Assembly: GCA_947626985.1 (NCBI GenBank) | Contig: CANQUG010000002.1 | Span: 1-64,000, forward strand | DNA length: 64,000 bases | Reading direction: 5' to 3' | From: an uncultured Lachnospiraceae bacterium | Lineage (GTDB): Bacteria; Bacillota; Clostridia; Lachnospirales; Lachnospiraceae | Part shown: positions 16,059 to 50,420 of the stretch, piece by piece | Layout: every line of letters starts with the position of its first letter | How positions within the stretch are numbered: position 1 is the stretch's first letter | The notes under the pieces: generated by a model | What the model saw: the letters and a program-made list of their open reading frames with translations, nothing else | Databases searched by the model: none | Told to the model about the DNA's origin: nothing | Program-made: the position numbers and the translations under genes

Positions 16059-16084
16059 GGCTGACGGCGTCAAGAATGCGTGGC

Positions 16085-16308
16085 GCTGACGGCTAAAGGC
16101 CGGTGACGCCGTCAACGTAAAGGCCTGAAAGTGCCGATGGCATAAAAACCCGGTAGCGCCGACGGCATAAAAGCCCGGTAACGCCGACGGCATAAAAGCC
16201 CGGTAGCGCCGTAAGCATAAAAGCCTGGAAGTGCCATAGCATAAAGGCCCGGTGACGCCGTCGACGTAAAGACCCGGTAATGACGCCGGCACAAAAACCG
16301 GATGAGGT
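16085..16308. repeat. 25-bp tandem array downstream of parC
   Basis: About nine head-to-tail copies of GACGGCATAAAAGCCCGGTAGCGCC (copies of 24-28 bases) fill the 16059-16398 gap. Within each unit GGCATAAAAGCC can form a small hairpin. Copies 3-5 are nearly identical and the outer ones are decayed. There are no unique spacers, so this is not CRISPR. It may modulate read-through from parC into the next gene. Confidence 0.8.
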
Positions 16309-34048: not shown

Positions 34049-34442
34049 TAAAAAAATGCCCGGTTCCTGTCCTTTTAGGACGAGAACCGGGTCCCGTGAT
34101 ACCACCTAAATTCACAGAAGACTCGCGCCTTCTGTCTCAGCAAGTGACGATATTCTCCCCAATCTTCCTTATGAAATATCGGACAGCACAGCATCACTCC
34201 GGCAGGATAACGGTCGCCGTTCCGTCGCAGCCTACTGTTCTTTCGGTGCGCAGCTCCGGGATGTATTCACTCAGGTTCCACAGGCGCCTCTCACCGGCCG
34301 GCAGCTCTCTGTCCGCTTTCCCTGAACTACTTCTTCCCTTCCAGGCCTTTTTCTTATAGATGATCCAGTGGCCGGAAGCCGCCTCTCCTCCCCGTGTCCG
34401 GACAGAAACGGCAGACTTCTCCATGAAGATCATAAAACATAT
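34049..34442 (-). promoter_or_regulatory. Tyrosine T-box riboswitch leader of tyrS
   Basis: Senses uncharged tRNA-Tyr. In transcript order: stem I with GGTGAGAGG and the loop GAGTGAATACATC carrying specifier UAC (34265-34263); the T-box AATTTAGGTGGTATCACGGG (about 34114-34095); and the terminator CCCGGTTCTCGTCC...GGAACCGGG with a T7 tract (34091-34050). Uncharged tRNA-Tyr should stabilise the antiterminator and switch on tyrS. The 33927-34552 gap is otherwise only its promoter and an AT-rich spacer. Confidence 0.95.
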
Positions 34443-46643: not shown

Positions 46644-47522
46644 TTATTCGATGTTCTGGATCTGTTCCCGGATCTTCTCGATCTCCGTTTTCAGGTCGAT
46701 GGCGATGTTGGAAACCTCCAGATCATTGGATTTGGAAAGGATGGTGTTGGCCTCCCGGTTCATCTCCTGGGCCATAAAGTCCATCTTCCTTCCCACTCCC
46801 TGGCTTTCCTCCAGGATTTTTTTCATTCCCTGAATATGGCTGCGCAGGCGCACAGTTTCTTCGTCGTTGCAGATTTTGTCGGAAAAGAGGACCACCTCCG
46901 CGGCGATCCGCCCTTCGTCGATCTGGGAATCCTCCAGGAGTTCCTTTACCTTCTGTTCCAGTTTTTCCCTGTAGGCGGCTATCACCTCGGGGGAGCGCTT
47001 CTCCACCCGGGCCACCTTCTCATCCAGGCCCTTCAGCTTTTCCAGAAGGTCCTCCTTCAGGTGTTCTCCCTCCCGGATCCGGGTCTCCACGAATTTTCCG
47101 CAGGCCTCCCGGAGGGGTTCCTCCAGGTATCCCCACAGTTTTTCTTCGTCCATGGACTGCTCTTCCATGGTGAGCACCTCGGGATATCGGGACAGGGTGG
47201 ATGCGCGCACGTCGAATTCCAGGCCGAATTCGTCGCTGATCTGTTTCAGGTAGGCGAGATATTCTCCGGCAAGCTCCCGGTTGTACTTTAATGCTCCCGT
47301 GTTCAGGGTGTAGTCCTCCCAGGTGATATAGACGTCCACCTTGCCCCGCTGCATGTAAGTCTTCAGGAGATTGCGTACGGCTCCCTCCAGGAAGCTTAAT
47401 TTCTTCGGCATCTTGATGCTCAGATCCAGATACCGGTGGTTGACGGATTTCAGTTCCACAGTGATTCTCCGCTCGCTGGTCACCATCTCGGCACGGCCGA
47501 AGCCTGTCATACTTTTTATCAT
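46644..47522 (-). CDS. yicC: YicC family endoribonuclease
   Basis: First gene of the yicC-remA-gmk-rpoZ series. The N-terminal domain starts MIKSMTGFGRAE and has ELKSVNHRYLDLSIKMPKKLSFLE; the C-terminal DUF1732 region includes GRKMDFMAQEMNREANTILSKSNDLEVSNIAIDLKTEIEKIREQIQNIE, which is highly characteristic. In E. coli YicC is an RNase involved in small-RNA turnover. The length of 292 aa is standard. Start ATG 47522 is the family's MIKSMTGFGR, and a consensus promoter lies about 50 bases upstream. Confidence 0.95.
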   Translation of the reverse strand: MIKSMTGFGRAEMVTSERRITVELKSVNHRYLDLSIKMPKKLSFLEGAVRNLLKTYMQRGKVDVYITWEDYTLNTGALKYNRELAGEYLAYLKQISDEFGLEFDVRASTLSRYPEVLTMEEQSMDEEKLWGYLEEPLREACGKFVETRIREGEHLKEDLLEKLKGLDEKVARVEKRSPEVIAAYREKLEQKVKELLEDSQIDEGRIAAEVVLFSDKICNDEETVRLRSHIQGMKKILEESQGVGRKMDFMAQEMNREANTILSKSNDLEVSNIAIDLKTEIEKIREQIQNIE

Positions 47523-47569
47523 AATCGTCTCTTTCTGTGATTTGATTTGTTTTCATGGTACACAGACTC

Positions 47570-47598
47570 ATTATAGTCAATTCTAAAACCCTAGTCAA
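47570..47598 (-). promoter_or_regulatory. SigA promoter of the yicC operon
   Basis: TTGACT (47598-47593), 17 bases, TATAAT (47575-47570) on the minus strand, about 45 bases before yicC. Confidence 0.85.
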
Positions 47599-47714
47599 AC
47601 TCTTTTTTTGCTGTTATAATTGGGGGGATTGGATGGGGGAGTTTCCGTGCAGGGAGGGAAATTTGGGCAGACGGAAAATTTTGGCGGACGGGAAATTTGG
47701 GCAAACGTACGCCA

Positions 47715-47886
47715 GGGAGGCGGCCCTGTCTGTCATGCAGACGCCGCAACGCTCCGCCGAACTAACCGCTAACTCCGACTAAGACGCTCAGGAAGAGCCT
47801 TCGCGCCTAAGTCTCCATAAGCGGTGGATTTCGTCTCCGCTAAAACCGCGCCTGAACTGTCTGCCTGACAGACAGGGCCGCCTCCC
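47715..47886. repeat. 172-bp element bounded by 28-bp inverted repeats
   Basis: Arms 47715-47742 and 47859-47886 (GGGAGGCGGCCCTGTCTGTC...) match in 27 of 28 positions. The 116-base interior (GCCGCAACGCTCCGCCG...) can fold further (partial pairing of CTAAGACGC with GCGCCTAAG). No ORF inside. It resembles a MITE-like or structured RNA element. It fills much of the 47523-48129 gap. Confidence 0.75.
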
Positions 47887-47905
47887 CGGCTGTTTACTGC
47901 CCCCG

Positions 47906-48029
47906 GCAGAATGATACCTCAGGCTTTTCTGCGGCTCTCTGCCACTGAACGGCCGGATGTCCACCGATTTTCCCGCAGAATGCTGCCTCAGGCTTTTCTG
48001 CAGCTCTCCGCCACTGAACAGCCGGATAT
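47906..48029. repeat. Two 55-bp direct repeats, period 69
   Basis: Copies 47906-47960 and 47975-48029 share GCAGAATG..CCTCAGGCTTTTCTGC.GCTCTC.GCCACTGAAC.GCCGGAT with about seven differences. They lie between the 172-bp palindromic element and rqcH. No coding potential seen. Confidence 0.75.
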
Positions 48030-48129
48030 TACTGCCCGGGAATCTTCAAAAATTTTATACTATGTTATTACAGATTGTGAATAAAGTTGGAAATAGAAAA
48101 AGCTGAAATATAAAATAAGGAGAATTGAT

Positions 48130-49881
48130 ATGGCATTTGACGGAATTACCATAAAAGCTGTCGTCGCGGAATGTAATGAGCGGCTCAATGGGGGGCGTTT
48201 TCATAAGATCGCTCAGCCGGAAAGTGATGAACTGCTTATTACCGCGAAGAGTCCTCAGGGTCAGTACCGCCTGCTGCTTTCAGCCAGCGCTTCCCTGCCC
48301 CTGATCTATTTTACGGATAAAAACAAGCCCAGTCCTCTTACTGCGCCCAATTTCTGCATGCTGCTGCGCAAGCATGTGGGCACGGCCCGCATTGCTTCTA
48401 TCCGCCAGCCGGGGCTGGAACGCGCGGTGGAGTTTGAGCTGGAGCATTTGAACGAGATGGGCGATCCCTGTAAAAAAATCCTCATTATTGAGCTCATGGG
48501 CAAACACAGCAATCTGATCTTCTGTGACGAAAATCGTATGATTCTGGACAGTATCAAGCATGTGTCCTCTCATATGAGCTCTGTGAGGGAGGTGCTGCCC
48601 GGGCGGCAGTATTTTCTTCCTCAGACTCAGGAGAAGCTGGATCCTCTCACGGTTACGGAGGAGGAGTTCCGGGAGGCGGTGTGCCGGAAGCCCTGCAATA
48701 TTTCCAAAGCGCTTTATTCTGCTCTCACCGGCCTGAGTCCGGTGATGGCGGAGGAAATCTGTTTCCGCGCCTCCATAGACGGGGGCGACGCGGCTCAGTC
48801 TCTGGACGCTCCTTCGGCCACTCATCTGTATCATACCTTCCGCAGGATCATGGATCAGGTAGAGGAGGGGGATTTTACGCCCAATATTATTTATCGGGAG
48901 GGGGTTCCCGTGGAGTACGGGGTTCTTCCCCTCACGCAGTATGGAAGCGAATATACGGCGGAACGGTTTGACAGCGTTTCCGCTATGCTGGAGGCTTACT
49001 ACGCCTCGAAAAATACCGTCACACGCATCCGTCAGAAATCCTCCGACCTGCGGAGGGTGGTTCAGACCGCTCTGGACCGAAACCGGAAGAAATTCCTGCT
49101 TCAGGAAAAGCAGATGAAGGATACCGAAAAGAAGGATAAATACCGGGTATACGGAGAGCTTATCAATACCTACGGCTATGGTCTGGAGGAGGGGTGCCGC
49201 TCCTTCCGGGCGCTTAACTATTATACCGGGGAGGAGATCGAGATTCCTCTGGATCCCGTTCTTACGCCGGGGGAAAACGCGAAAAAATATTTTGACCGCT
49301 ATGGAAAGCTGAAGCGGACGGAGGAGGCTCTCACCCAGCAGCTTGCGGAGACGGAAAGCGAGATCGCCCACCTGGAATCCATCTCCAACGCTCTGGATAT
49401 CGCTCTCTCGGAGAGCGATCTGTCCCAGATCCGGGACGAGCTGGTGCAGTACGGCTATATCAAAAAGCATGCCGGGGATAAAAAGGGACGGAAAATGCAG
49501 GCCAAATCCAGGCCCTTCCATTACATATCCAGCGACGGCTACGACATCTATGTGGGAAAAAATAATTATCAGAACGATGAGCTCACCTTCAAACTGGCCA
49601 CTGGCAATGACTGGTGGTTCCACGCCAAGAAAATGGCGGGCTCCCACGTGGTGGTGAAGACGAAGGACGGGGAAATTCCGGACCGGACCTTCGAGGAGGC
49701 CGGCAGACTGGCCGCCTACTATTCCAAAGGGCGCTCCGCTCCCAAGGTGGAGATCGACTATATCCAGAAAAAGCACGTAAAAAAACCCGGCGGAGCAAAA
49801 CCGGGCTTCGTGGTATACTATACCAATTTTTCTCTTATGGCTTCCCCGGAAATCGGAGATATCCGGGAAACGGAATCCTGA
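48130..49881 (+). CDS. rqcH: Ribosome quality control protein RqcH (NFACT family)
   Basis: NFACT-family homolog of eukaryotic Rqc2. It binds stalled 50S-peptidyl-tRNA complexes and recruits tRNA-Ala to add C-terminal Ala tails. The NFACT-N domain begins MAFDGITIKAVVAECNERLNGGRFHKIAQP. Central helix-hairpin and coiled-coil regions run through ~300-450 (RKKFLLQEKQMKDTEKKDKYRVYGELI...). The C-terminal NFACT-R domain has DGYDIYVGKNNYQNDELTFKLATGNDWWFHAKKMAGSHVVVK and KVEIDYIQKKHVKKPGGAKPGFVVYYTN. The length of 583 aa is normal. Older annotations call such proteins fibronectin-binding. AAGGAG lies eight bases before ATG 48130. Confidence 0.94.
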   Translation: MAFDGITIKAVVAECNERLNGGRFHKIAQPESDELLITAKSPQGQYRLLLSASASLPLIYFTDKNKPSPLTAPNFCMLLRKHVGTARIASIRQPGLERAVEFELEHLNEMGDPCKKILIIELMGKHSNLIFCDENRMILDSIKHVSSHMSSVREVLPGRQYFLPQTQEKLDPLTVTEEEFREAVCRKPCNISKALYSALTGLSPVMAEEICFRASIDGGDAAQSLDAPSATHLYHTFRRIMDQVEEGDFTPNIIYREGVPVEYGVLPLTQYGSEYTAERFDSVSAMLEAYYASKNTVTRIRQKSSDLRRVVQTALDRNRKKFLLQEKQMKDTEKKDKYRVYGELINTYGYGLEEGCRSFRALNYYTGEEIEIPLDPVLTPGENAKKYFDRYGKLKRTEEALTQQLAETESEIAHLESISNALDIALSESDLSQIRDELVQYGYIKKHAGDKKGRKMQAKSRPFHYISSDGYDIYVGKNNYQNDELTFKLATGNDWWFHAKKMAGSHVVVKTKDGEIPDRTFEEAGRLAAYYSKGRSAPKVEIDYIQKKHVKKPGGAKPGFVVYYTNFSLMASPEIGDIRETES

Positions 49882-50260: not shown

Positions 50261-50420
50261 GTCCGAAAACCTGAACAGTCGTCGACGCCCGCAGGAGGCA
50301 AACGTCCTTGTGGCGTTTGAATTCTGTCCGAAAACCTGAACAGTCGTCAGCCCCCGCAGAAGGCAAACGTCCTTGTGGCGTCTGAGTGCTGTCCGAAAAC
50401 CTGATCAGTCGTCAGCGCCC
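50261..50420. repeat. 65-bp tandem repeat running into the EF-G paralog 3' end
   Basis: Copies start GTCCGAAAACCTGA at 50261, 50326 and 50391. The first two are complete (65 bases each, ending ...CGTCCTTGTGGCGTYTGA). The third includes the stop codon and last codons (GADD) of the EF-G-like gene before diverging. Thus the end of the gene appears to have been duplicated outward. Confidence 0.85.

Follow-up and report, generated by a model that had tools for sequence, protein, structure and literature searches.

The palindrome between yicC and rqcH analyzed in this study is probably one copy of a non-coding, non-autonomous and dispersed hairpin DNA repeat of the Lachnospiraceae, whose arms would be homogenized by template switching during replication. 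The copy lies in a window of 64,000 nucleotides (the whole stretch of DNA that was analyzed) from a gut bacterium that is a relative of Blautia schinkii. The repeat family is real and is undescribed in the literature that we searched, which covered a minority of the subscription papers. We regard it as a variant of the small palindromic repeats, unusual in the concerted evolution of its arms, in its flanking minisatellites and in the fixed polarity of its paired copies.

Extent and folding of the element

A preliminary description of this locus had noted a 172-bp stretch with 28-bp inverted ends matching at 27 positions, an interior able to fold and no open reading frame, upstream of rqcH and between the divergent yicC and rqcH genes. 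All of these features were borne out. The inverted ends (47715–47742 and 47859–47886) match at 27 of 28 positions, and the palindrome extends further, to arms of 32 nt that are 94% (30/32) complementary. The predicted fold of the stretch has an energy of −87.2 kcal/mol, compared to −53.1 ± 4.3 kcal/mol for shuffled sequences (z = −7.9), a value that no shuffle out of 200 reached. The stretch is free of plausible ORFs. Alignment with other copies from the same genome showed that the complete unit, conserved tails included, spans 192 nt, extending a little beyond the 172 bp that were first noted (Table 1). The identities of both neighboring genes were supported by Pfam, and no Rfam family reached its gathering score at the element site. 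The units of the array that abuts the left tail (17 bp × 2.9) bear variants of the tail itself.

Table 1. Features of the yicC–rqcH locus, in window coordinates. For parts of the element, the plus strand is the orientation of the covariance model and is nominal with respect to function.
Feature	Coordinates	Strand	Evidence or remark
yicC	46644..47522	-	Pfam PF03755, PF08340
Probable yicC promoter, TTGACT-17-TATAAT	47570..47598	-	Conserved in congeners
Probable rqcH promoter, TAGTCA-17-TATAAT, TG before -10	47592..47620	+	Conserved in congeners
Copy-specific minisatellite at left tail, 17-bp unit, ~3 copies	47656..47707	+	Tandem-repeat finding; TRF 47659–47707
Whole element copy: left tail CGTACGC, arm, core, arm, right tail GGCTGTTTAC	47706..47897	+	Own-genome copies aligned
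Left palindrome arm	47711..47742	+	32 nt, 94% complementary to right arm
Conserved core, R1-modelled, 34 pairs and internal loops	47740..47861	+	R1 match 140.2 bits; covariation
Innermost 72-nt core, model positions 21–92	47760..47831	+	Sole sequence-conserved part in B. schinkii
Right palindrome arm	47859..47890	+	94% complementary to left arm
Copy-specific 69-bp-period duplication, right side	47903..48029	+	47903–47960 vs 47972–48029, 51/58 identical
rqcH (NFACT), leader lengthened by element	48130..49881	+	Pfam PF05833, PF05670

Copy number and distribution

A nucleotide search of the genome from which the window derives identified ~34 copies of the element, 30 of which cover most of its length and four of which are shorter. 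All of the copies examined are intergenic, with convergent, divergent and co-directional neighbors alike, and the interiors of most full-length copies are 86–94% alike. Copies in congeners are divergent, sharing the interior and having stems that are unrelated in sequence yet still paired. A covariance model of the core (R1, see below) matched 19 of 64 genomes of the same genus, the other 45 being without a match, and 20 of 250 Lachnospiraceae genomes when one genome per genus was searched. The preliminary description would have been refuted by a single copy lacking transcript and conservation; the element proved to be neither single nor unconserved, and its conservation extends across the family.

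The largest number of copies was found in B. schinkii (G066, judged to be strain DSM 10518), in which 140 of 150 scored candidates matched, a lower bound that gives this genome at least 140 elements; two other genomes have 27 (G076) and 39 (G189). Beyond the family the element was not detected: only two genomes of the order sample matched R1, both of them Lachnospiraceae, and the source genome was the sole match in the phylum sample. A scan of named genomes gave at least 118 matching stretches, and the titles among the matches listed were all Lachnospiraceae, including Blautia schinkii, Dorea, Eubacterium and Acetatifactor, or less resolved Clostridia and Eubacteriales. A phage or plasmid origin was rejected, there being no match among phages, plasmids or IMG/VR.

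A conserved core within copy-specific arms

Each copy has a conserved core of 72–120 nt inside near-perfect arms that are specific to that copy. The core alignment (A1) from which R1 was built comprises 23 sequences and 122 columns, and in its structure four helices and their fixed internal loops make up a rod. Changes on both sides of the pair, the compensatory changes looked for in the helices of a structured non-coding RNA, were found at 22 of the 34 core pairs; for instance, columns 51–61 are A-U, C-G or G-C, columns 28–84 are C-G, U-A or G-C, and columns 5–112 are G-C, C-G or U-A. Overall, 86.2% of core cells are paired, compared to 77.7% when shuffled and 26–42% when slid. The conservation of the core at each copy exceeds what would be due for a dead insertion, which suggests either function or homogenization.

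The concerted evolution of the arms is clearest in B. schinkii, where arms of 46–52 bp surround the innermost 72 nt. Arm identity is 96.3% within a copy against 63.1% between copies, and core identity is 87.7%. If selection acted on RNA pairing, G-U should be tolerated on the transcribed strand, but it makes up only ~1% of core and stem pairs in this family, and the stems do not clearly favor either strand. Mismatches in the B. schinkii arms comprise 18 A-C, 11 G-U and 13 others among 1254 aligned positions, and in the stems of 140 elements from many genomes there are 5352 Watson-Crick pairs and isolated deviations of 69 A-C, 52 G-U and 73 others. By comparison, tRNA stems of the source genome gave 20 G-U to 3 A-C, in a control that is small and whose stems are partly misregistered (35 “other” pairs). 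Since G-U is near-absent and strand-symmetric in the arms, we infer that DNA, and not RNA, is the level at which their complementarity is maintained, with the arms upheld as a palindrome.

Within the core, 123 distinct sequences have 45 G-U and 98 A-C among 3853 cells, with 42 of the A-C at one pair. The non-Watson-Crick cells of the 23-sequence seed favor one strand (36 A-C to 7 G-U), mostly at pairs 45–67 and 12–101. The minus strand was considered as an RNA strand on the basis of this asymmetry, a case weakened by the larger set, in which the excess is mostly at one pair and the stems are nearly symmetric.

Flanking arrays and paired copies

Tandem arrays lie at the borders of many copies, with a repeat unit that is specific to the locus and includes the tail of the element, such as 24 bp × 7.2 (L008), 41 bp × 5.3 (L010), 64 bp × 5.3 (L017) and 17 bp × 6.6 (L025). 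At the stricter array score, 10 of 30 own-genome copies have an array no more than 20 nt from their left end (Fisher p ~1e-4) and 7 of 32 have one equally near their right end (p ~0.01), the figure for random non-coding points being 29 of 400. Over all loci, the enrichment of arrays in non-coding DNA is moderate, at 7–14% of positions within 800 bp of an element and 4–5% beyond. Outside the tails, the flanks are also often complementary to each other, with a score of at least 20 in 25% of 67 copies and in 1.6% when flanks were shuffled. Upstream of one element of the source genome (L033, G000:C183) are tandem arm-only pieces of ~39 bp (~4.6 copies by TRF) that consist of the 5′ arm and tail with the core deleted, possibly as products of hairpin deletion. 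The window has two further minisatellites, a nested 25/50/99-bp array at 16084–16299 and a 65-bp × 2.5 array at 50261–50420, whose unit starts with GTCCG and resembles the tail units of the element, with no hairpin match close by.

Copies that lie close together have a fixed polarity: among 25 neighboring pairs less than 1.3 kb apart, the (+,−) arrangement occurs 24 times, (+,+) once and (−,+) never. Template switching does not explain this polarity. The left end of an element is closer to a gene than the right (medians of 81–207 and 262–381 nt, respectively), and a replication-strand bias of the copies was rejected, as local GC skew revealed none that was consistent. Apart from the element ends, the linkers within pairs are mostly unrelated, and it was on this basis that we rejected the pair as one composite transposon, although two inner regions in G002 are similar. 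In two places of that genome (L080/L066 and L049/L088), the non-coding DNA beside the elements is similar, which may mark a larger composite unit. In B. schinkii, several pairs (L072, L075, L093, L141) resemble heterodimers of two arm subtypes, whose inner ends are GGCTGAT/GGCAGAT and GGCAT.

The element in the probable rqcH leader

The adjacency of yicC and rqcH is kept across the genus, with a conserved pair of divergent promoters between them in the congeners that we read. The element is placed between the conserved rqcH promoter and the rqcH start codon and probably sits within the rqcH leader. From the -10 hexamer (47615–47620) to the start codon there are ~510 nt in the window, compared to roughly 40–120 nt in several congeners. 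Of ten congeners whose locus was fetched, B. schinkii alone has an element, which follows closely on the rqcH -10 and has the orientation of the window copy; the other nine are without one there. Either common descent or independent insertion fits the two elements. Since the congeners are only ~70–76% identical at this locus, neither a target duplication nor an exact empty site could be resolved.

Other, unrelated hairpin sequences occupy the same place in three of the congeners without the element at this locus (L300 in G081, L305 in G076 and L308 in G016), bounded by GATACC...GGTATC in two of the three, a pattern that would fit a hot spot for hairpin repeats in the rqcH leader. A general role of the element as a leader or riboswitch was rejected, as its orientation and its distance to genes are inconsistent among copies. 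Its interpretation as a terminator was likewise dismissed, as there is no terminator-like site in 47500–48150 and gene orientation is random. Elsewhere, the window has a T-box leader on the minus strand (34073–34352; RF00230, 106 bits).

Alternative explanations

The preliminary description had proposed that the element could be a MITE or a structured RNA, and each of these proposals stands in part. The main rival to a DNA repeat is a structured RNA repeat, in which the product of every copy would be a rod-like hairpin RNA, or a leader element, under selection for RNA pairing. Its support comes from the strong covariation and conserved internal loops of the core, the stable fold, the one-strand preference in the 23-sequence seed and the location of the window copy in the probable rqcH leader. 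The covariation is firm, but we consider this explanation unlikely, as G-U does not exceed A-C on either reading beyond one pair, in core or stems, in contrast to the tRNAs, and its scarcity and strand symmetry argue for a DNA structure. In addition, orientation to genes is random and Rfam has no match. Less probable still is a hairpin or cruciform that serves the host as a protein-binding site (of nucleoid, gyrase or boundary type) and marks intergenic boundaries. Such a site would account for the conservation of the core, which is kept at dozens of positions, and for the fixed polarity of the inverted pairs, and the proximity of the left end to genes would also suit it. Against it are the patchy distribution, with most genomes of the genus having no element by the model, the lack of a consistent replication-strand bias and an orthologous site that is not conserved.

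The ends of a classical MITE are a shared sequence that is read by a transposase. Like MITEs and other small mobile sequences, the copies here are short, non-coding, dispersed and intergenic with inverted ends (PMC10969869, PMC2229807), and the absence of the element from the orthologous site in nine congeners is also MITE-like. However, there is no common terminal inverted repeat, as arms are 63% identical between copies and 96% within them, so that only short tails and self-complementarity are kept, and neither a parent transposase nor a target duplication was found near the elements. We therefore find it very improbable that the element is a standard MITE, derived from a DDE insertion sequence with terminal inverted repeats, despite the agreement in size, dispersion, inverted ends and intergenic insertion. 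We give least credence to a REP/RAYT-type element, a single-stranded DNA hairpin that is moved in trans by a Y1 (HUH) transposase. REPs are palindromes of 20–40 bp tagged with GTAG or CGTC, and REP, BIME and REPIN elements resemble this family in being many dispersed intergenic palindromes with unpaired tails and frequent inverted dimers (PMC3733652, PMC3116915). The minus-strand tail GCGTCCG contains CGTC and recalls the CGTC-tagged REPs (PMC3733652), but it merely resembles the tag, and the element differs from REPs in its length of ~190 nt, mismatch-bearing conserved core, copy-specific stems and flanking minisatellites. Furthermore, the Y1_Tnp domain (PF01797) is absent in seven genomes that carry elements, including the source genome (G000, G076, G077, G006, G028, G018 and G034), and B. 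schinkii has only short fragments of it. A Y1 enzyme is thus not required, and a RAYT is largely refuted as the current mobilizer.

Comparisons to other systems revealed partial likenesses. MRSC-65-2, one of the “mobile/repeat sequence candidates” (PMC11109978), is similarly multi-copy, with strong covariation, inconsistent gene orientation and possibly an action as DNA, but it consists of one long stem, has a UYCCGG repeat and occurs in diverse phyla, whereas the element family was seen only in Lachnospiraceae and has another sequence and architecture. Integron attC sites are folded DNA hairpins of variable stem sequence with conserved unpaired bases (PMC3053210, PMC6393395), whereas the copies of this element are single or paired, dispersed rather than arrayed with ORFs, show no cassette array and have a long conserved core. 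A parallel for the arms is in inverted repeats homogenized by template switching in replication, a mechanism described for quasi-palindromes, in which the arms of one palindrome are kept alike and palindromes differ (PMC8604942, PMC7202029). The perfect palindromes in mitochondrial genes of Nematomorpha are a further parallel for concerted palindromes (PMC6649704). Unlike these cases, the element is a dispersed repeat with a conserved core and dozens to >100 copies per genome.

A proposed model for spread and arm homogenization

In the DNA repeat that we favor, the form recognized would be a long hairpin, whose top is the conserved core with its fixed internal mismatches and whose base is the copy-specific stem, in which pairing is nearly perfect. 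The copy number, the patchy distribution and the differences between sites suggest mobility, and new copies would spread to intergenic sites through a trans-acting enzyme, whose substrate may be single-stranded DNA or a cruciform hairpin. After insertion, each arm of a copy would serve as template for the other through strand or template switching in DNA replication, and the two would therefore stay complementary within the copy while copies drift apart. Stalling and slippage of the polymerase at the hairpin base would yield the locus-specific tandem arrays and the flanking inverted repeats, so that template switching may underlie both the concerted arms and the arrays.

An autonomous partner beside the copies was rejected, as no recurrent transposase cluster was present among 1817 clustered ORFs near elements. 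No target duplication of constant length was seen by eye in the own-genome flanks. A more far-reaching proposal is a mobile system of Firmicutes based on single-stranded DNA hairpins, in which a recombinase or nuclease would recognize the folded core, spread would be polar, the stem would be regrown at each insertion and minisatellites would be seeded from the flanks; we view this proposal as rather doubtful.

If the DNA repeat is as we propose, a common family of gut bacteria bears an unrecognized repeat that shapes its intergenic regions, lengthens leaders such as that of rqcH and creates minisatellites. Its many copies would represent a natural, replicated test of the concerted evolution of palindrome arms. 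They would also indicate that a multi-copy “RNA motif” can owe its strong covariation to processes at the DNA level, for which the symmetry of G-U and A-C would be a simple check.
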